From a virus, in the IMG/VR virus record IMGVR_UViG_3300042569_000544, positions 1-28,808 of that record: DNA of 28,808 nucleotides, one strand, 5' to 3'. Under the pieces are notes generated by a model. That model did no database searches, was not told the DNA's origin, and saw nothing but the letters and a program-made list of their open reading frames with translations. Position numbers and translations under genes: made by a program. Positions 1 through 28,808 of this stretch are shown here, in pieces. Numbering within the stretch: position 1 is the stretch's first letter; every line of letters starts with the position of its first letter.

Positions 1-79
1 GGCTAGTGCTAGTCCATGCGCTTAGCGCGTGAATCTCATCGTTGCCGTAATGTCCAATCAATTCTACCGTGTTGTTCAT
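1..79 (-). CDS. thyX: FAD-dependent thymidylate synthase ThyX (N-terminal fragment)
   Basis: The reverse strand from the ATG at 79-77 reads 26 codons and leaves the window. The peptide contains V-E-L-I-G-H-Y-G followed by H-A-L-S-A-W-T-S-T-S, which I recognise as the N-terminus of phage-type ThyX proteins. ThyX makes dTMP from dUMP using FAD and methylenetetrahydrofolate, and phages use it to supply thymidylate for replication. The catalytic RHR-x7-S motif would lie outside the window and cannot be checked. There is no Shine-Dalgarno sequence before the ATG. The gene is divergent from the rightward early region. The call rests on 26 residues only. Confidence 0.62.
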   Translation of the reverse strand, partial: MNNTVELIGHYGNDEIHALSAWTSTS

Positions 80-220
80 TTCTTTGAGTTTGTGCTTGCT
101 TTTGGTGTTTTCTCCTCTGTCAACCGTAAGAAAACTATGCCTTTTTTCTTACAAAAGTAAACAGTCAAGTCTAAATTATTTATTCTTTTTAATTAAGAAG
201 TTAAACATTTAAGGGTTAAA
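80..220. promoter_or_regulatory. AT-rich divergent intergenic region
   Basis: This spacer lies between leftward thyX and the rightward structured region, so promoters for both directions are expected here. It is AT-rich from about 135 to 220. On the minus strand CAAAAGTA at 152-159 reads as TACTTTTG, which fits the TAnnTTTG -7 element of Bacteroidota promoters, but no matching upstream TTTG box is seen at the usual spacing. No clear sigma-70 pair was found in either direction. The promoter role is inferred from layout. Confidence 0.3.
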
Positions 221-247
221 GGTTGAGCGTAGATCAACCGTCCGTTT

Positions 248-379
248 TCGCTTCCCTTCAGTTCCAGAGAAAGGAGGTTTAAGGAGAGAAACAAGGCTCT
301 GCCATTGGTAGTCTGACCCTTCGGCTCGCCGTATTCTTACATTCGGGCGTAATTCAGCTTTGTCTCGCTTCCCTTTCAG
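248..379 (+). repeat. Imperfect direct repeat inside the structured region
   Basis: TCGCTTCCCTTCAG at 248-261 recurs as TCGCTTCCCTTTCAG at 365-379, differing only by one extra T. The copies are about 117 bp apart. They may be duplicated structural modules of the RNA. No function is known. Confidence 0.55.
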
Positions 380-503
380 ACCTTTCGACTATCTGGTTGC
401 CATAGCAGGAATACCTCCTGACCTTGCTATGGACTTGCGACAAAACCTAGCTTCTGATGAGTATCGTGCTTTTGGCAGTATGGCCATCGGGTAAAGCAGA
501 AAT

Positions 504-586
504 CCCGTACAGGGCGGATGGAGGGGCCTGTACGGGACTAAGACCGAGCGGCGAGCTAGTGTTACCTAGCAGTTCCATCCGCTCGG
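504..586 (+). other. Tandem hairpins with a competing 9-bp helix
   Basis: Hairpin 1 pairs 504-513 with 527-536 (CCCGTACAGG/CCTGTACGGG). Hairpin 2 pairs 544-551 with 579-586 (CCGAGCGG/CCGCTCGG) and holds an inner GCTAG/CTAGC stem with a TGTTAC loop. The loop of hairpin 1 carries GCGGATGGA (514-522), exactly complementary to TCCATCCGC at 574-582, which overlaps the 3' arm of hairpin 2. The RNA can form either hairpin 2 or a pseudoknot with the loop of hairpin 1, but not both fully. Confidence 0.6.
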
Positions 587-829
587 CAAGAGCTACAATC
601 TACCACTTTGTGCAAACGTCAACTGGCAGCTACCAACTTTGTTATGTCGTAAGTGCTTGGTATTGCGACAACTCAGCCCGTAAAATCAAAATGTTGAAAA
701 AATTAGCTCGCATTTTCAACAAGCGCAAAATAGGTTTTGGGGCATGGGGCGACGAAACCCATCAACGATCCTCTTACCTAGCCATCAGGTGACGAAATAA
801 AGGTGGCGCCAACTAACACACAAAAACAC

Positions 830-1108
830 ATGACTGACACACAACTAAACGCCGAACAGGAAGCTTTTCTAGCTTTCATGGACGCATCTAAGAAAAGCCT
901 AGATGCAACAAATCAAATTAGTGAGGTTTTTCAAAAGTATATGGATGCTACTAAAAAAACTACTGAGGCTTATGCGGAATATGTCCGCCTTCAAGCAGTT
1001 GAAACAAGTGCTTATTCCGACTATGTAGAAGCATCAAAGTTTTCAAATATTCAATCCGATAATGCCAACAAGTTACACAATGAATGGGTTAAGATTAGGG
1101 GTTACTAA
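830..1108 (+). CDS. Small hypothetical coiled-coil-like early protein
   Basis: This 92-aa product is polar and rich in Ala, Lys, Asp and Thr. It has recurring spaced aromatic residues (MDASKKS, MDATKKT, YSDYVEASK) that suggest long amphipathic helices. The ATG at 830 was chosen. An in-frame GTG at 803 would add nine residues, but neither start has a Shine-Dalgarno sequence and the N-terminus MTDTQLNAEQ looks natural. It is the first protein gene after the structured RNA region, with the next gene starting one base after its stop. No family is recognised. Confidence 0.6.
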   Translation: MTDTQLNAEQEAFLAFMDASKKSLDATNQISEVFQKYMDATKKTTEAYAEYVRLQAVETSAYSDYVEASKFSNIQSDNANKLHNEWVKIRGY

Positions 1109-1109
1109 A

Positions 1110-1316
1110 ATGGAAGAACATCCACATACAAGACTTATAAATACCAAAAAGTGGGCCGCAACGCAGGATGACTGCCGGGAAGTATCAATCTTAATTGAAG
1201 ACCTTTTCTGGGCATTGGAAGAAATTGAACGCCTTCGTTTTCAACAATCCGACGCAGACTTGCAATATGACCTAGAAACCGAGTCTCGTTCTTGGCTACG
1301 GGAGGTGATCGAATGA
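1110..1316 (+). CDS. Small hypothetical protein
   Basis: A 68-aa product starting MEEHPHTRLINTKKW, acidic and probably helical in its second half (EDLFWALEEIERLRFQQSD). The ATG at 1110 follows the preceding stop by one base. An ATG at 1062 in the same frame would overlap the previous gene heavily and is not preferred. The stop TGA overlaps the ATG of the next gene (ATGA), which suggests translational coupling. I do not recognise a family. Confidence 0.55.
   Translation: MEEHPHTRLINTKKWAATQDDCREVSILIEDLFWALEEIERLRFQQSDADLQYDLETESRSWLREVIE
1301..1310 (+). promoter_or_regulatory. Near-perfect extended Shine-Dalgarno site
   Basis: GGAGGTGATC lies two bases before the ATG at 1313. It is complementary over ten bases to the conserved 3' end of 16S rRNA. 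Almost no other gene in the window has a recognisable Shine-Dalgarno, so this stands out. It also encodes residues R-E-V-I of the previous gene, so chance cannot be excluded. The core-to-start spacing is slightly long but usable. Confidence 0.5.
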
Positions 1317-1657
1317 GTAATGAACACGTAGCATCACTTTTTGCTTTTCTTAATTCAGCAAAGGTGAAAGAAAAATATGAGTTTTATCGGCGCGGTGGAG
1401 GCGCAGTAACTGGAACTTATTTACCAAAATCAAAAATTGGGTATAAGTTAACTGACAGCGAAAAACAGCAAATAATTGAACAATATCAAAAGCAGATACC
1501 GATTCAAGTAATTGCTAACAAAATTGGAAGGTCAAATGACTCTATTAGGAATGTTTTAAAAAGAGCTGGAATTTATGATGTTGATAGGGATAAACTATCA
1601 AACCTAATTGCAGGGCACGAATCAATTAAGACAACATACACAAATAAAAAACGCTAA
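1313..1657 (+). CDS. Putative helix-turn-helix DNA-binding protein
   Basis: The ATG at 1313 gives 114 aa. A longer frame from 1292 would bury the ribosome site and is not preferred. Residues about 45-85 (KLTDSEKQQIIEQYQ ... VIANKIGRSNDSIRNVLKRAG) look like a resolvase/transposase-type helix-turn-helix: a helix, the turn around I-A-N-K-I-G-R, then a recognition helix. No catalytic domain accompanies it. It could be an early transcriptional regulator or an adaptor. The exonuclease gene starts one base after its stop. The fold is inferred from pattern; targets are unknown. Confidence 0.6.
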   Translation: MSNEHVASLFAFLNSAKVKEKYEFYRRGGGAVTGTYLPKSKIGYKLTDSEKQQIIEQYQKQIPIQVIANKIGRSNDSIRNVLKRAGIYDVDRDKLSNLIAGHESIKTTYTNKKR

Positions 1658-1658
1658 A

Positions 1659-2465
1659 ATGGGACACTATTACGACAAGGACGGAAACGCTTGCCATACG
1701 CAAGCCACCAAAGCTGGTGCTAAAAACAAGACGCGCCCAACTACGGTTGCCGACGCACGCAAACTCAAGCTGCTGCCAAGTGTGACAACGGTTATGGAAG
1801 ACATAACAAAGGGTGCATTTGCTGATTGGGGGAAAAGGAATGTTCTTCGCATTGCGGGAGGAATCCCGTTAATTGGTTGCGAGAATGTTCAAGAATGGAT
1901 TGGCGAAATCCTTAAAGTTGACAATAAGGAGAAAGATGACACCTTTAAGTTTGGCACGGCTATTCACCACGAAATCGAAGTCGCCCTGAATCACGGAGAA
2001 TGGGATGAGGGACTTAATAATTATGTATGCCCTGCCTTAGATGCAGTTTGGGCTATGGACTTGCAGGAAATGGTCACTGAATCAGTCACGGTTAATTCAG
2101 AAATTGGCTACGCTGGATGCGTTGACCTTGCAGGCTGGATGCAAGACGCAGAGAGCATGGTGGAAATTCCAACAGTTCCTGTTATTGTTGACTTCAAGAC
2201 CAAGAAAACTAAGGCGGGCGAAAAGATTGACGTTAGCGAAACCTATCCTTGGCAGCTCGCAGCTTACCACGTTTCCAAATTTGGCAAGAGCCAGCGTGAA
2301 TTGCACCCTATGGCTAAGGCCGCATTGGTTTTTATTAGCTCAACGGAAGTTGGTCGCGTTGAAGTGGTATGGTTTGAACACGCAGACCTAGACTACGCAT
2401 GGGACTGCTTTAAGGCTTGCCATAAATTATGGTGCTTACGCAACGATTATTACTTGACATACTAG
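1659..2465 (+). CDS. PD-(D/E)XK exonuclease (RecB/Cas4/lambda-exonuclease-like)
   Basis: Starting at ATG 1659, just after the previous stop, the product is 268 aa. It shows the ordered motifs of the RecB-like nuclease superfamily: G-T-A-I-H-H-E at about 99-105, V-D-L-A-G with Asp156, V-D-F-K with Asp178 and Lys180 as the metal-binding and catalytic pair, and W-Q-L-A-A-Y-H with Gln199. Such enzymes resect double-stranded ends. With the ERF-like annealing protein and SSB-like protein just downstream, it would form a phage recombination or repair module: resection, strand annealing, single-strand protection. Cas4-type cysteines are not evident as a cluster, so I favour a phage recombination nuclease. 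Confidence 0.85.
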   Translation: MGHYYDKDGNACHTQATKAGAKNKTRPTTVADARKLKLLPSVTTVMEDITKGAFADWGKRNVLRIAGGIPLIGCENVQEWIGEILKVDNKEKDDTFKFGTAIHHEIEVALNHGEWDEGLNNYVCPALDAVWAMDLQEMVTESVTVNSEIGYAGCVDLAGWMQDAESMVEIPTVPVIVDFKTKKTKAGEKIDVSETYPWQLAAYHVSKFGKSQRELHPMAKAALVFISSTEVGRVEVVWFEHADLDYAWDCFKACHKLWCLRNDYYLTY

Positions 2466-2491
2466 GGTGAATACCCAACATAGAACACGAT

Positions 2492-2707
2492 ATGAATGAA
2501 CTAAATAAACATGAGGAAGAAGCACTCCACGAAGTGCTGACAGACATTACCGATTCCAGCGATGAAATTGGTCAAAACCGCGCCATTGATCGCTACCTAA
2601 AGCTCAATATGGCAGTTGCCATTCGTAACGGCACGCTGTCGGGCGAAATGTTCGATAAGGCGTTAGATACACTTAAACCCAAACAGAAAATACACGGAAA
2701 CAACTGA
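2492..2707 (+). CDS. Small hypothetical protein within the recombination module
   Basis: A 71-aa acidic, mainly helical product starting MNELNKHEEEALHEVLTDI. It sits 26 bp after the exonuclease and one base before the ERF-like gene, in the same direction. No signal peptide, membrane segment or cysteine motif is visible. The position suggests an accessory role in recombination, but no family is recognised. No Shine-Dalgarno precedes its ATG. Confidence 0.6.
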   Translation: MNELNKHEEEALHEVLTDITDSSDEIGQNRAIDRYLKLNMAVAIRNGTLSGEMFDKALDTLKPKQKIHGNN

Positions 2708-2708
2708 T

Positions 2709-3290
2709 ATGGCACCACTAGAACTAGATAAAATTGCCCCTGCACTCGTTGCAGCCCAAGCAAAAATCACGTTTGCAACTAAGGATAGCACAAATCCACA
2801 CTTTAAGAATCGTTACGCCGACTTACAAAGCGTAATTGAAGCCATTAAAGGGCCGTTGAATGAGAATGGCATTGCGTTCATTCAAACTCCTTCCAAGTCG
2901 GAAGCAGGTTTCCTTAGTTTAACCACTATGCTGATCCACACTAGCGGCCAGTTTATTAGTGACACCGCTTCCATCCCACTACCAAAGAATGACCCGCAAG
3001 GTTATGGCTCTGCCCTTACATATGGTCGCAGATATGGATTGGCTGCGATTTGCGGGCTTTTCCAAGCTGATGACGATGGAGAGGCGGCTAAGCCTGTTGT
3101 TGTGCCTGTAATGGCATCTATGGCCAATAAGGCCGACATTGCCGCTATCAACACTTTTGCTGAAGGTTCGGATACGGGCAAAGTTGTTACCGCCGCCTTC
3201 AAGCATTACGCAGTTAAAGCAGCTAAAGACCTAACGTCAGACCAAGCAGCAGCTATCATTAAACGCTGCATTGAAACCGTCCAGAAATAA
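2709..3290 (+). CDS. erf: ERF family single-strand annealing protein
   Basis: The 193-aa product has hallmarks of the ERF superfamily of phage annealing recombinases. Near the N-terminus is N-P-H-F-K-N-R-Y-A-D-L preceding a helix (QSVIEAI). At about 97-127 is the signature Y-G-S-A-L-T-Y-G-R-R-Y followed by the acidic F-Q-A-D-D-D-G-E-A. These proteins form rings that anneal complementary single strands, working with an exonuclease and often an SSB, exactly the neighbours seen here. The region after about residue 130 is less conserved and ends in a helical segment. Start at 2709 directly follows the previous stop, with no Shine-Dalgarno. Confidence 0.9.
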   Translation: MAPLELDKIAPALVAAQAKITFATKDSTNPHFKNRYADLQSVIEAIKGPLNENGIAFIQTPSKSEAGFLSLTTMLIHTSGQFISDTASIPLPKNDPQGYGSALTYGRRYGLAAICGLFQADDDGEAAKPVVVPVMASMANKADIAAINTFAEGSDTGKVVTAAFKHYAVKAAKDLTSDQAAAIIKRCIETVQK

Positions 3291-3301
3291 TAAACAAGTC
3301 C

Positions 3302-3625
3302 ATGCCTAACATCAACGTATCACTCGACATTAACGCTCTCCGCGATTTCATCAAAGAGAACCCCAGCTCCGTCTTTAAGGGCAAGAAGGACTATTTCTCC
3401 CTAACCCTGTTTGCCAATGAAGTACCCGACAAGTTTGGTAATGATTTCTCTGTTAAGCCCCGCCTTAGCAAAGAACTAAAGGAGGAGTTTAAGAAGGAGG
3501 ATAAGAAACTGCCCTTCGTTGGTAACGCCAAGATTCAAGAGGCTTACGATCCTTCCAAGTATAGCAAGCCGACCACGCCGATCAAGAACGCAAAGGTAGA
3601 GGTTGCAGAAGATTTGCCGTTCTGA
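3302..3625 (+). CDS. Single-stranded DNA-binding-like protein with acidic tail
   Basis: This 107-aa product begins with a beta-rich stretch (INVSLDINALRDF, DYFSLTLFANE) and ends in a flexible Lys/Pro region tipped by E-V-A-E-D-L-P-F. That tip resembles the acidic DDIPF-type C-terminus by which SSB proteins recruit partners. Location right after ERF supports a ssDNA-binding role in recombination or replication. It is shorter than bacterial SSB (about 150-180 aa) and the OB fold cannot be confirmed by eye, so this is a motif-plus-context call. Confidence 0.65.
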   Translation: MPNINVSLDINALRDFIKENPSSVFKGKKDYFSLTLFANEVPDKFGNDFSVKPRLSKELKEEFKKEDKKLPFVGNAKIQEAYDPSKYSKPTTPIKNAKVEVAEDLPF

Positions 3626-3638
3626 TTTAGACACACTC

Positions 3639-3960
3639 GCCCTAGGTGTTAAAATTAGGGCACCGTTCTTTTAACAAACTAGACTCCGTTCCTTGCAAGA
3701 CGAGACTTCGGAATATATCGCTGGAAATTTCCGGTGAGAAAGCTGGATCAAGTTTTGGCCTGCTAACACACGCAGAAGCGTCTGTGGCTGAAAGCGGAAT
3801 AGTGCCTGTCCTACCGATGACTAGGCTCCATCTTCCCCTAGCTCGCCTCTGTCTGGCAGCAATCGCCACGTTATGCTACTAGGGGGTTCTTCCCACCATC
3901 ATCTAACATCGAAAGATGCGCCTTGAATGTCGTAAATGCAGGCGGAAATCCTGCTGGTGG
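3639..3960 (+). ncRNA. Second candidate structured non-coding region, upstream of tRNA-Thr
   Basis: The 342 bp between the SSB-like stop and the tRNA has no convincing protein gene but several potential helices: 3639-3644/3656-3661 (GCCCTA/TAGGGC); 3767-3773/3778-3786 (AGAA loop, 2-nt bulge); 3835-3841/3879-3885 (CCCCTAG/CTAGGGG); and a possible three-way junction closed by 3893-3898/3955-3960 (CCACCA/TGGTGG) with branches 3907-3910/3915-3918 (CATC-GAAA-GATG, a GNRA loop) and 3938-3942/3950-3954 (GCAGG/CCTGC). A perfect palindrome GGAAATTTCC is at 3723-3732. The first hairpin could instead be a weak terminator after the SSB-like gene. No known RNA family was recognised. Confidence 0.4.
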
Positions 3961-3967
3961 TTCCTTT

Positions 3968-4041
3968 GCCCTCATAGCATGAAGGTCGTGCAAAAGTTTT
4001 GTAAACTTTAGGCGAGGTTTCGATTCCCTCTGAGGGCTCCA
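3968..4041 (+). tRNA. tRNA-Thr(UGU)
   Basis: A full cloverleaf folds. Acceptor GCCCTCA (3968-3974) pairs with TGAGGGC (4031-4037), followed by discriminator T and an encoded CCA (4039-4041). The D arm is GCAT/GTGC with loop GAAGGTC. The anticodon stem is AAAGT/ACTTT with loop TTTGTAA, giving anticodon UGU (Thr, codon ACA and wobble). The variable loop has 4 nt and the T-loop is TTCGATT. The last T-stem pair (T-C) is mismatched, which is unusual. Bases at 3-4 of the acceptor and the TAGC start of the D arm fit threonine tRNAs. Confidence 0.88.
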
Positions 4042-4078
4042 ATTTACTCCACAGTAAAATCTACCGATTCAGTAAAAC

Positions 4079-4375
4079 ATGAAAAAACAAATAAATAAAT
4101 TAGACCACTTCAATAAAAGCGACTTAGTGTTCTGGGCATTTAGATATATGCTAGGCCGTCAGTCTTACGCAGTTAGCGACTTTGCTGAACGTTTAGCTTT
4201 AAGCTGGAACTCACTAGATAAGCAAGTACAGCAGTTAATCAAAAAAGAGCTTGATAAAGCGTTCTTGAAAGATGATGAAACCCGTGCATTGAAATGCGAC
4301 TACAAAACTCTTGGTGGTGATTGCGACCGTAATTCATGGCAAAAGGTTAAAGACGCCTATGAAAAAGCAAACTGA
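4079..4375 (+). CDS. Conserved-looking phage hypothetical protein
   Basis: The 98-aa product contains L-V-F-W-A-F-R-Y-M-L-G-R-Q-S-Y-A-V-S-D-F followed by W-N-S-L. I associate this pattern with a widespread family of small phage proteins of unknown role, often next to DNA-metabolism genes. Directly upstream, CAGTAAAA occurs twice, at 4052-4059 and 4070-4077, just before the ATG. No Shine-Dalgarno is present. The end overlaps the HNH gene by 17 bp. Confidence 0.65.
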   Translation: MKKQINKLDHFNKSDLVFWAFRYMLGRQSYAVSDFAERLALSWNSLDKQVQQLIKKELDKAFLKDDETRALKCDYKTLGGDCDRNSWQKVKDAYEKAN

Positions 4376-4763
4376 AAAGCCTTTCAATGGCGGAAATTGG
4401 TCGATTAGCCGTATGCGTAGTTTCGCTATGTCGGCACTACGGAGGGCACAATGGCCAGCTAAATACCAAGCAATTTCACAGGCTTACATTGGTGATGGAA
4501 TTAACCCAAAGACAGGTAAGCCGTGCAAGTTACACAAATGCCCCACTTGCGAGAAAGTGTATCCAAAGGGCATGATGCACGCAGACCATAAAAATCCGGT
4601 AATACCCATTGACAAACAGTGGTCAAATGGTTTTCTCGGCTACGATTGGAATGAAGTGATGCGTAACTTATGGTGTGAGAAAGATGGATTTTCCGCAATC
4701 TGCAAGGAGTGTCATAAAACTAAAACAAAACAAGAAAACACAGAAAGAAGAAACAATAAATGA
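4359..4763 (+). CDS. HNH endonuclease
   Basis: Starting at ATG 4359 (MKKQTEKPF), the product is 134 aa. It has a zinc-finger-like HNH core: C-P-T-C, then H-A-D-H-K-N-P-V with the first catalytic His, a W-N/R-N-L-W central segment, and C-K-E-C-H-K-T-K-T with the final His and second Cys pair. HNH enzymes nick or cut DNA. In phages they act as homing endonucleases, packaging-associated nucleases or recombination nucleases. As a free-standing gene among recombination and replication genes it may be either a recombination nuclease or a selfish homing enzyme. The ATG overlaps the previous gene, and the stop overlaps the next start. Confidence 0.8.
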   Translation: MKKQTEKPFNGGNWSISRMRSFAMSALRRAQWPAKYQAISQAYIGDGINPKTGKPCKLHKCPTCEKVYPKGMMHADHKNPVIPIDKQWSNGFLGYDWNEVMRNLWCEKDGFSAICKECHKTKTKQENTERRNNK

Positions 4764-5119
4764 TTAACCTGCCAGCTCCAATCGGATACAAGCCAAGTAA
4801 GAAAAGCAAAGGAGTATTTCGCTATCCAACACAAGAAGAACGAAAGCTAATTTCTAAATTTATTCTAGTAAATGGGTCTTATAAAGCAGAAATAGAGTTT
4901 AACATTAGCAAAACATTAGCCAAATCTATTCGCAAACAGTTTGGCATTGCACCACTTAAAGTGGGACGAAGCGCAACTTATACTGATGACGATGTGAAAA
5001 AGTGGATTGCTTATTTAAAGGAAAATAAAAACAATATAAAGCAGTGTTCAAAAAACTTTAGCTGCTCACACGATACAGTTGCTCGCAGGGTTAAAGAATA
5101 TGAGTCTAAATTTAATTAA
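4760..5119 (+). CDS. Putative helix-turn-helix protein
   Basis: The 119-aa basic product appears to contain two helix-turn-helix-like segments. One is around residues 32-60 (LISKFILVNGSYKAEIEFNISKTLAKSIRKQFG); the other is near the C-terminus (IKQCSKNFSCSHDTVARRVKEY). Such doublets occur in resolvase-like or homing-enzyme-associated DNA-binding domains. The start ATG overlaps the stop of the HNH gene (ATGA), so it may cooperate with that endonuclease, for example by giving target specificity. That link is inference from coupling. No catalytic residues are visible. Confidence 0.6.
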   Translation: MINLPAPIGYKPSKKSKGVFRYPTQEERKLISKFILVNGSYKAEIEFNISKTLAKSIRKQFGIAPLKVGRSATYTDDDVKKWIAYLKENKNNIKQCSKNFSCSHDTVARRVKEYESKFN

Positions 5120-5321
5120 ACAATATTGCGAATATGTAACCAAGGCTGCAAGCGAACAGGGATGGAAACTCGCACTAGCTCTACACGGTTTCGCATGGCA
5201 AAAGGATGGTGAAACCAAACAATACATTTACGTTACCAATGATGCAAGAGACGCATTGCATCAGGCTTGTATGACACTCGATAACGACTTCCTCAAACTA
5301 CCACAATTAGAAATTAAATGA
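5100..5321 (+). CDS. Small hypothetical protein
   Basis: The 73-aa product starts MSLNLIKQYCEYVTKAASEQ at ATG 5100, inside the end of the previous gene (20-bp overlap). A longer frame from 5079 is less likely. It has a helical N-terminus and a mixed middle (FAWQKDGETKQYIYVTNDARDALHQ). Its stop overlaps the ATG of the phosphoesterase gene. Coupling to that enzyme suggests a related role. No family is recognised. Confidence 0.55.
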   Translation: MSLNLIKQYCEYVTKAASEQGWKLALALHGFAWQKDGETKQYIYVTNDARDALHQACMTLDNDFLKLPQLEIK

Positions 5322-6178
5322 AAACAGACGGACTATTCAGCGCACATTCAGTTATCATCAACGCAAAGCTCAATGAGCCCTTCTACATCATTCCCTTTGG
5401 CGACATCCACCGCGAATCAGAGGCATTTGCACATGAAGAATGGGAGCAGTTTTTAGCCTACGCAAAGAAGAAAAAGAACACCTATTTTTTCGGCATGGGT
5501 GACTACTGCGATGGTTGCAGTACGTCAGAGCGTCAAATCTTGGGCCAACTCCACGATAGCACCGTGGCAACAATGAAAGGCGTTTACAAGGGAGTTATTA
5601 AAACCTTGGCTAATGAGCTTTCCTTTATGAAGGGCAAGATCATTGGCATGTTAGGCGGAAACCACTTCTACGAGTTTGAGAATGGAGAGAATACCGATCA
5701 CATCTTGGCGCACGCATTAGGAGCAAAATATCTCGGCTGTACGTCTTTGGTTCGCCTGTCGCTAGCGTTTCCAGATCGCCCTAAATTAGCTGTTAGCCTA
5801 GACTTATTTGGCAATCATGGCAAGGGTGGTGGTCGTACCGTTGGCGCAGTGTTTAACGCCATTGAAGATATGCAAAAGGTTGCTGATGCAGACATTTATA
5901 TTCAAGGACACACGCACAGTAAGGGTATTATGCCTAGTTTTCCCCGTATGCGACTAGTGCCAAACGGAAAGAACGGCGTAACTGTTCGTGCTCGCCAGCC
6001 TTTCTTGGGCCGTACTGGTAGCTTTCTGAAAACCTACGAGAACGGCAAGAAGGCTTATGGCGTAGATGCACTCTATCCTGGCTGTTCTCTAGGCGTAATC
6101 GAGTTTGAGGTGACGCCAATTCGCGTACGAAAAGACGGGGTAGATCGCATTGAGTTGAAGATTACGGGTAAAGCATGA
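5318..6178 (+). CDS. Calcineurin-like metallophosphoesterase
   Basis: The 286-aa product carries the ordered metal-binding motifs of the calcineurin/Mre11-type fold: G-D-I-H (28-31), G-D-Y-C-D (61-65), G-G-N-H-F (113-117), G-N-H-G-K-G (165-170) and G-H-T-H (197-200). All expected Asp, Asn and His ligands are present, so it should be an active di-metal phosphoesterase. Related phage enzymes hydrolyse DNA ends or nucleotides, but the substrate is not visible from sequence. It shares an ATGA junction with the gene before, and its stop overlaps the next start, so it sits in a tightly coupled early operon. No signal peptide, hence cytoplasmic. Confidence 0.88.
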   Translation: MKTDGLFSAHSVIINAKLNEPFYIIPFGDIHRESEAFAHEEWEQFLAYAKKKKNTYFFGMGDYCDGCSTSERQILGQLHDSTVATMKGVYKGVIKTLANELSFMKGKIIGMLGGNHFYEFENGENTDHILAHALGAKYLGCTSLVRLSLAFPDRPKLAVSLDLFGNHGKGGGRTVGAVFNAIEDMQKVADADIYIQGHTHSKGIMPSFPRMRLVPNGKNGVTVRARQPFLGRTGSFLKTYENGKKAYGVDALYPGCSLGVIEFEVTPIRVRKDGVDRIELKITGKA

Positions 6179-6405
6179 ACTGGATAAACGTAAATGATAG
6201 ACTTCCAGAAATGAAGGAAGAACACCACGGTCACTTTAGCTCAAATAAAGTATTGGTTTACTCTAAAGAGGCAGGGTTATTCTTGGCATCGCTTTGCACA
6301 ACTTTTGGAAATTCTAATGGCAAGTGGTTTAAGGATGGAAGCTATAAAGTTTGCAAAGACGCCATAACCCACTGGACTATGCTACCCGATAAGCCTAAAT
6401 GCTAA
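6175..6405 (+). CDS. DUF551-like protein
   Basis: The 76-aa product begins W-I-N-V-N-D-R-L-P-E and continues with K-V-L-V-Y and I-T-H-W-T-M-L-P near the end. This is the spacing of DUF551 proteins, common in phages and prophages and of unknown function. Start ATG overlaps the phosphoesterase stop (ATGA). It is a compact cytoplasmic protein without membrane segments. Confidence 0.75.
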   Translation: MNWINVNDRLPEMKEEHHGHFSSNKVLVYSKEAGLFLASLCTTFGNSNGKWFKDGSYKVCKDAITHWTMLPDKPKC

Positions 6406-6602
6406 TCCCTAGAGACAAGCCCTTCATTGACGGTCTTCGCTATCGGGAGACTGCTAATGTAGATAACCGTAAGCTAATGCTCTACGAGGAAGACGAGAAC
6501 GGCCCATTGCAGCGTGTTTTAGGCGTTTTGGCTTGCGTAGAGGCGTTACCACCTGATAAAGTGGCAACGCCAGCTAAAAAGAAGCACGTTGGATTCTGGT
6601 AA
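6399..6602 (+). CDS. Small hypothetical protein, last gene of the rightward operon
   Basis: The 67-aa product starts MLIPRDKPFIDGLRYRETAN and ends in a Lys-rich tail (PAKKKHVGFW). Its start overlaps the end of the DUF551-like gene. It stops only 5 bp before a strong terminator, marking it as the promoter-distal gene of the rightward block. No family is recognised. Confidence 0.6.
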   Translation: MLIPRDKPFIDGLRYRETANVDNRKLMLYEEDENGPLQRVLGVLACVEALPPDKVATPAKKKHVGFW

Positions 6603-27603: not shown

Positions 27604-28808
27604 TTAATAGCCACCGGAACGGCGCTTAACGTGCTTGAAGTCTTTCGGGTCAACGTAGTAAATGTCACTAACAGCCGCATAACGCAGGCAGTTTCCGCAA
27701 ACAAGTGGAGTCATGTTTCTCCTTACGATAAGCGTTCCATTTGGAACAGTTACGCAATAAACCATGCCGTCGTAATCAATTTCATTTACTAGCATACGCT
27801 TATCCTTTGTAGTAACAGTAGCCTTACGGGTCTTACGCTGCGGAATGTGGTAAAGCGGAGTTGTTGATATGCGACTCCCGCTATCAAGCATCCTCCAATT
27901 GACTAGTCCTTGAGCAAGGCCAAGCAACTGCATAATGACTGTGACTTGGTTGGCCAGAACAGGGGAAACAGTAGCGTAAGTTGCAGTGTTTTCGTATTTG
28001 CGCCAGCCATCGCCCAGAACCATTGCCTCCCACATCTTCGCCAAAGCGCATTTCGGAAACTCGATAAAGTTGGACGGAAGCATTTTGTCGTAGCTATTTC
28101 CTAGTGGAAGCAAAATCTCCCACAGTGATTGATTGGAGATAACATAGGAAACTCCGCGATATGCCCAATTAAACCCAATTCGGTCAAGCAATGCCTCTAT
28201 CCTGAGACATTTTTCTGGGTTCGCTGTTTTGCTTTGAGATATGTAAATTGAGTATCCCCTACCGGGCACTTGTATTTTTCCTCCCTTGGTTCCGGTCGCG
28301 CTTCCTTCAGCTACATACCAGCCAAGGAACTCAGCCCAATCAGAAACCATCATTTTCCTGCCTGCAATCTCAATCTCGTAATCATCGGAATCCTTAACTC
28401 CATTGGTTACAATTAGGAATGTGTCCTGCCTGCAAATATCTTTAGCCAACCTAAATTTCAGATTCTTTCCCTGTTTAAAAGTAAGCATACGGTGATTTGG
28501 GGTTACCGCAAAATCAATGCTGTTTGATTTGGCTGTAATCAGTTTGCCTGAAAAATGGCGCTCATGGTATTCGGTTGGAACTTGCCACTCCATAAATCCG
28601 TCTTTATCCATTGTTGCCACTGGCTCCAATTTTGATAGATCGCAAAACTTAACCCATCCGCTTTTAGTCAGTATTTCCGTCTCTACGTCATAGCAATCCA
28701 CAGGGTCTTTCGCTTGCTCGTCTGGGCCTTGCGCACCCGTGTACTCCTGTAAGGCCCAAATGATGTTCTCACATCGTTCGGAGACGTAAAAATGGGGTCT
28801 GTTAATTG
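27604..28808 (-). CDS. Terminase large subunit, C-terminal part, interrupted by an intein
   Basis: The reading frame is open from the right edge (frame from base 28806) to the stop at 27604. The flanking (extein) parts join as ...R-P-H-F-Y-V-S-E-R-C-E-N-I-I-W-A-L, then ...A-K-D-P-V-D, then C-L-R-Y-A-A-V-S-D-I-Y-Y. The D-P-V-D-x-L-R-Y stretch is the last conserved motif of the TerL RNase H-like nuclease, with the predicted metal-binding Asp, which cuts DNA during packaging. The ATPase domain lies outside the window. An internal GTG at 28701 is not a start. The 335-residue insertion in the middle is an intein. Confidence 0.85.
   Translation of the reverse strand, partial: INRPHFYVSERCENIIWALQEYTGAQGPDEQAKDPVDCYDVETEILTKSGWVKFCDLSKLEPVATMDKDGFMEWQVPTEYHERHFSGKLITAKSNSIDFAVTPNHRMLTFKQGKNLKFRLAKDICRQDTFLIVTNGVKDSDDYEIEIAGRKMMVSDWAEFLGWYVAEGSATGTKGGKIQVPGRGYSIYISQSKTANPEKCLRIEALLDRIGFNWAYRGVSYVISNQSLWEILLPLGNSYDKMLPSNFIEFPKCALAKMWEAMVLGDGWRKYENTATYATVSPVLANQVTVIMQLLGLAQGLVNWRMLDSGSRISTTPLYHIPQRKTRKATVTTKDKRMLVNEIDYDGMVYCVTVPNGTLIVRRNMTPLVCGNCLRYAAVSDIYYVDPKDFKHVKRRSGGY
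27691..28695 (-). mobile_element. LAGLIDADG intein in TerL
   Basis: 335 residues from Cys1 (C-Y-D-V-E-T-E-I-L, block A) to terminal Asn, followed by Cys+1 of the host protein. Block B is V-T-P-N-H-R-M-L with Thr65 and His68. Two LAGLIDADG motifs are at about 123-133 (F-L-G-W-Y-V-A-E-G, acidic Glu130) and 218-230 (L-A-K-M-W-E-A-M-V-L-G-D-G, acidic Asp229), so the homing endonuclease looks intact. Block F is V-Y-C-V-T-V and block G is L-V-C-G-N|C. The residue before Asn is Gly rather than the usual His. Excision would restore D-P-V-D-C-L-R-Y. Confidence 0.92.

Follow-up and report, generated by a model that had tools for sequence, protein, structure and literature searches.

In the autogenous translational operator of gene 32 in phages T4 and RB69, a pseudoknot serves to nucleate gp32 on the less structured segment next to it (PMC535899). 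At the tisB standby site, a pseudoknot is needed for binding of S1 and the 30S subunit (PMC7708055). ACA motifs enhance translation and are present in pseudoknot ligands of S1 (PMC3879156). GOLLD and ROOL are large, pseudoknotted, phage-encoded RNAs of unknown function, which share the formation of a homo-oligomeric RNA cage. Structured RNA also stands at the head of the early transcript in phage HK022, where put comprises two hairpins in less than 100 nt. To our knowledge, few phage leader RNAs are known outside the T4 and lambda groups, and in most phages whose hosts are uncultured there has been hardly any search for them.

Here, we describe a non-coding element with a layout similar to that of the gene 32 operator. 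As in T4 and RB69 (PMC535899), an H-type pseudoknot (774-807) is followed by a weakly structured, A-rich segment (808-829) and the start codon (AUG 830), in what would be a phage mRNA leader. Unlike in T4, the downstream gene encodes a 92-aa protein not recognizable as an ssDNA-binding protein, the leader is far longer, and spacing and repeats differ, with UUAAA in T4 and ACA here. The element thus falls outside the gene 32 family, as it does not precede a recognizable phage ssDNA-binding protein gene. What it has in common with the tisB standby site is a 5' leader combining a pseudoknot with a single-stranded region (PMC7708055), but here the gene is a phage gene, a Shine-Dalgarno sequence is lacking, and no sequestered ribosome-binding site is evident.

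Genomic setting and relatives

The window, that is, the whole stretch of DNA analyzed (28,808 nucleotides), is a linear phage record of 28.8 kb with both ends cut. Its left end holds the 5' part of a minus-strand thyX gene (ATG at 81), the product of which is intact in relatives L002 and L003 (206 aa), and its right end lies inside a terminase-like gene bearing an intein. This large subunit gene (27604-28806, minus strand) carries the intein in its middle, where the similarity is to intein-bearing proteins that are functionally unrelated (ThyX, RNR, and PhoH-type PHROGs, NF045703). Late genes occupy the minus strand (28806-6615) and early genes the plus strand (830-6602). The early block includes genes for the 92-aa protein without assigned role, an HTH protein, an exonuclease, an Erf annealing protein, an ssb-like protein (3302-3625; C terminus EDLPF, no family match), and tRNA-Thr, among others. 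A Shine-Dalgarno-like motif precedes only 4 of the 33 predicted gene starts; thus, the phage mostly initiates translation without Shine-Dalgarno sequences, which suggests a host group making little use of them.

The element lies in the intergenic region 82-829, between opposite-facing gene blocks. An earlier note on this DNA had placed it between a divergent promoter region and the first early gene, and the flanks bear this out: minus-strand thyX lies on one side and the plus-strand early gene starting with ATG 830 on the other. No convincing match to a sigma-70 promoter for the RNA was found upstream of the element.

Querying with the exonuclease found 39 loci, three of which (L003, L038, and L002) have the element in common with the window, and the downstream protein as the query gave the identical trio. 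Identity to the window amounts to 93% in L003 (1-1100), 94% in L038 (249-1100), and 70% in L002 (595-873). Over approximately 620-1690, identity among the window, L003, and L038 is 95-100% and then falls sharply, indicating a recently exchanged block in which identity proves nothing. Informative variation is found at 250-450 (L003 and L038), 490-620 (L003), and 590-830 (L002). Since the comparison covers only four sequences and three of these are nearly the same over 620-1690, most of the conservation reflects recent exchange, and the small number of homologs is the main weakness of this analysis. The element holds its place ahead of the early operon while the upstream genes change. In L038, the space between thyX and the element has taken up a cytosine methyltransferase gene and an HNH-like gene (3227-4411), which suggests a hot spot of gene exchange. 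L002 has two small genes at this place, and there the 5' half of the element is replaced.

No match to the element was detected by blastn against 50,697 phage and 72,556 plasmid records. Pattern scans of IMG/VR returned the same trio as the only true relatives, with L044, L045, and L053 rejected as chance or coding matches, and the single match in genome contigs, in Flavihumibacter coding DNA, was dismissed as chance. Neither phage C75C1 (66% portal identity) nor Methylophilaceae phage P19250A (57% Erf identity) has a homolog of the 3' domain. Searched over 529 kb, a covariance model built on the 3' domain, R1, matched none but the four phages, and the records of L002, L003, and L038 each have a single copy.

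Pseudoknots and helices of the element

Table 1. Features of the element and its flanks (positions in the window; PK1 and PK2, pseudoknots; S, stem; L, loop)
Feature	Position	Strand	Description
Divergent control region	140-245	.	AT-rich, between thyX (minus strand) and the RNA; TTAA-rich stretch 179-228 partly kept in L038; promoter(s) presumed
Structured RNA element, putative leader	245-829	+	Non-coding; block conserved in L038 begins at about 249
AGGAGGU	272-278	+	Proposed pairing with loop 413-419 (ACCUCCU); GGGAGGU/ACCUCCC in L003 and L038, one compensatory change, alone not significant
Hairpin CCAUAGCAGG/CUUGCUAUGG	400-432	+	U403-A429 pair missing from both arms in L003 and L038; one mismatch in L003 (G426A)
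PK1 stem 1 UCCCGUACAGG/CCUGUACGGGA	503-537	+	11 bp, invariant
PK1 stem 2	512-523 with 573-584	+	Core 514-522/574-582; A518G and U578C compensation in L003
Alternative hairpin CCGAGCGG/CCGCUCGG	544-586	+	544-551/579-586; overlaps PK1 stem 2 at 579-582; restored in L003 by indels
Hairpin 645-652/663-670 with loop pairing	601-670	+	Loop UGGUA (658-662) can pair with UACCA (601-605); both strands of the pairing invariant down to L002
Hairpin UGUUGAAAA/UUUUCAACA	692-721	+	9-bp stem unchanged in every relative; loop varies
PK2, predicted H-type pseudoknot	774-807	+	S1 774-779/787-792; L1 A780; S2 781-786/802-807; L3 793-801 CGAAAUAAA; three compensatory pairs in L002
Segment between PK2 and start codon	808-829	+	22 nt, ACA-rich, without Shine-Dalgarno sequence; same length in L002
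First early gene	830-1108	+	Encodes 92 aa; no Pfam match above the family cut-off; 46% identity in L002

The earlier note had proposed a large structured RNA at 221-770, dense in local helices, with a direct repeat and without a plausible gene. Many helices are indeed present, with exact arms at 503-513/527-537 (11 bp), 514-522/574-582 (9 bp), 692-700/713-721 (9 bp), 400-407/425-432 (8 bp), and 544-551/579-586 (8 bp), and TCGCTTCCCTT is repeated directly at 248-258 and 365-375. Dense structure is true locally but not across the full 550 nt. The fold energy of 221-770 is barely below that of shuffles on both strands (z of -1.4, p about 0.08), and the wider 215-830 behaves similarly (z of -1.6). 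It is clearly low at 440-590 (z about -3.5; -3.45), moderately low at 395-440 (z of -2.5), and ordinary at 245-440 (z of -0.45). A structured region exists where it was proposed, but the best-supported element, PK2, lies just past 770. The boundaries are better set at roughly 245-829, a non-coding stretch of approximately 560 bases in which 400-432, 503-586, and 774-807 stand out as the strongest elements. It consists of a variable 5' part, with the hairpin 400-432 and PK1 (503-584) plus its competing hairpin, and a better-conserved 3' domain (590-807) ending in PK2. Whole-region folding energy is a poor guide here: the decisive element is modestly stable and was found by comparison alone.

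The sole long reading frame in the region (457-792, 111 aa) was rejected as a gene, in line with the earlier note. In L003, one stop codon and two frame shifts interrupt it, and L002 does not keep it; Pfam gave no match either, so no conserved protein-like frame was found. We also regard it as very improbable that the region is the residue of a small protein gene in this frame. Two short same-frame stretches are alike in L002 (IYHFVQ.S.G and VSxWY), but an 11-base gap in L002 shifts the frame between them.

The strongest evidence for a conserved RNA structure is provided by PK2. As predicted, it fits the H type, which is defined by two stems with crossing pairs, a short L1, an L2 of 0-1 nt, and an L3 long enough to cross stem 1. 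The geometry of PK2, 6 + 6 bp with an L1 of 1 nt, an L2 of 0, and an A-rich L3 of 9 nt (CGAAAYAAA), is found in the window, L003, L038, and L002. Between the window and L002, S1 changes from UUACCU/AGGUGA to UGUCCU/AGGACA, which involves two compensations, and S2 from GCCAUC/GGUGGC to GCCAGC/GCUGGC, adding a third. At the given register, 100% of the PK2 cells are paired, compared to 35-55% in slid controls. Block shuffling (n = 3,000) yielded a conserved pseudoknot of any kind once (1/3000) and three compensations never (0/3000). A blind scan ranked PK2 first on the plus strand of the window, with about 0.23 candidates of this strength expected per whole shuffled window. Across 476 kb of related phage DNA, both strands included, 15 candidates reached the threshold, the non-coding ones being mostly PK2 and a sister at 3633. 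As a positive control, the same method recovered the tRNA stems at 3968-4041.

Read on the minus strand, PK2 would have its loop lengths swapped, leaving a loop of 1 nt that is hardly able to span the stem, and this geometry argues that the RNA is probably that of the plus strand. It also bears on the quite improbable reading that the structure acts as DNA, as a replication origin or as protein-binding palindromes between divergent operons. The site is intergenic between divergent gene blocks and both strands are hairpin-rich, but PK2 is compensated in both stems, its loop lengths fit plus-strand RNA only, and iterons are absent among the repeats found.

In PK1, the loop of the hairpin 503-513/527-537 pairs downstream in a helix of 9-12 bp. 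Of the helices showing a compensatory change between the window and L003, 512-523/573-584 is the longest, at 12 bp, and no pair in it is broken. When columns were shuffled within 60-column blocks, a helix as long appeared in 0.5% of shuffles (P about 0.005). The hairpin 544-551/579-586 is a possible switch partner of, or alternative to, PK1 stem 2. Transcriptional control by these mutually exclusive pairings, or a cis antitermination element serving the early operon, comparable with HK022 put, appears improbable to us. In L003, a double substitution preserves one alternative and indels preserve the other, but no U-run terminator follows either hairpin, and the 5' half is not conserved in L002. 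The likeness to put and other cis antitermination RNAs, compared through Rfam, consists in the position at the head of the early transcript, put being smaller with its two hairpins. Regarding longer-range contacts, the pairing 423-428/585-590 is compensated in relatives; the block-shuffle null yields one to three stems like this one or 272-278/413-419 per alignment, and both, being no commoner than under the null, are only possible.

L002 contains a look-alike of PK1, a hairpin CCUCCGG/CCGGAGG with the loop pairing GUACCAG/CUGGUAC. It may serve the adjoining minus-strand gene by covering its GGAGG and was left out of the evidence. At 4784-4850 of L002, the GGAGG Shine-Dalgarno sequence of this neighboring gene lies inside the strong hairpin CCGGAGG/CCTCCGG, which is possibly a translational switch of that gene.

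An exact 20-mer, CGTAAGTGCTTGGTATTGCG, corresponding to window positions 648-667 in the hairpin with the conserved loop, occurs at 4031-4050 (minus strand) of L054 (IMGVR_UViG_3300017605_000353). In this unrelated phage, the site is non-coding and precedes genes on the same strand; by chance, roughly 0.1 such matches are expected, and L054 has no similarity beyond the 20-mer and no R1 match.

Proposed role at the head of the early operon

With Rfam 15 at the gathering threshold, the tRNA at 3968 was the only match in the window. At an E value of 10, nothing convincing matched window positions 1-1100, the best sub-threshold hit being Pseudomon-1 on the minus strand (25.7 bits versus 50). At this E value, GOLLD and ROOL models gave no match, and riboswitch or ribozyme models were not among the matches. 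Hence, as far as the models tell, the element is not GOLLD, ROOL, or a known riboswitch or ribozyme. A hammerhead ribozyme, considered for CUGAUGAG near 454-461, was rejected by the misfit of stem II and GAAA, the latter being lost in L003, and a pistol ribozyme by the lack of room for P2 and P3.

The element therefore stands outside the named families. The earlier note, too, could not match it to one, and its proposal of an undescribed phage RNA gains support from the compensatory changes in relatives, three in PK2 and one in PK1, and from the lack of coding constraint. The likeness to GOLLD and ROOL drawn in that note did not hold up. The conserved 3' and variable 5' parts recall GOLLD (PMC12286853), although this is not a membership criterion. 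GOLLD and ROOL are often, but not obligatorily, found near tRNA islands, whereas this site has no tRNA island, the only tRNA being 3.1 kb away. The element, about 560 nt long, sits immediately upstream of a start codon, and no terminator was seen in between.

We conclude that this is a real structured phage RNA without a previous model, supported by few but good compensatory changes, and that it most likely acts as a leader in cis. With moderate confidence, we propose 245-829 as the structured 5' leader RNA of the early operon, with PK2 and the 22-nt segment setting translation of the operon's first gene. Conservation, compensatory changes, fixed spacing, and lack of coding are observed; we infer that the element is transcribed and acts in cis, presumably with a protein partner, and any sign of regulation is likewise conjectural. 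The distance from PK2 to the AUG is exactly 22 nt in both the window and L002, though the sequences there differ, and no plus-strand terminator is predicted between the two, which makes a cis-acting leader the simplest reading.

It is conceivable, if unlikely, that the element is instead a stable trans-acting non-coding RNA of approximately 300-560 nt, processed from the leader in the A-rich segment after PK2 and acting outside the operon on ribosomes, RNA polymerase, or other RNAs, like large phage RNAs. Several pseudoknots, long structure-only stretches, the conserved 3' and variable 5' domains, and the modular swapping of neighboring genes around the element in L038 and L002 are consistent with this; however, the fixed spacing and the missing terminator argue for a role in cis, and the 5' half is replaced in L002.

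As a cis-acting leader, the RNA would start in the divergent region at approximately 140-245 and fold into the variable 5' part and the conserved 3' domain closing with PK2. PK2 and the unstructured-looking ACA-rich segment would then most likely form a protein- or ribosome-binding platform setting translation of the first early gene, either by 30S/S1 loading or as a repressor site for a phage protein. Other early genes start with neither a Shine-Dalgarno sequence nor a pseudoknot of this kind, so translation in itself does not require PK2. Since the first gene is not ssb-like, strict autoregulation of the gene 32 type is not indicated; between action of the gene 32 type and of the tisB type, if either applies, sequence does not decide. 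Such a leader would extend the few known phage leader RNAs by a testable model of ribosome loading on, or repression of, the first gene.

A second non-coding region ahead of tRNA-Thr

Directly 5' of tRNA-Thr, the window contains a second conserved non-coding region (3626-3967, plus strand), with an identity of 85% to L003 and, over the first 214 nt, of 86% to L002. Rfam gave no match in this region. It opens with an H-type pseudoknot, ACACU c GCCCUA GGUGU uaaaau UAGGGC (3633-3661), kept in all three, and further contains a compensated stem (3753-3760/3786-3793) and a hairpin resembling a tRNA T arm near 3937-3953. This region may be another undescribed structured RNA. It is tempting, though doubtful, to place the element in an undescribed class of large multi-pseudoknot phage RNAs, acting both as leader and as stable RNA at the head of the early operon of a largely Shine-Dalgarno-free phage, with the region beside tRNA-Thr as its sister RNA.
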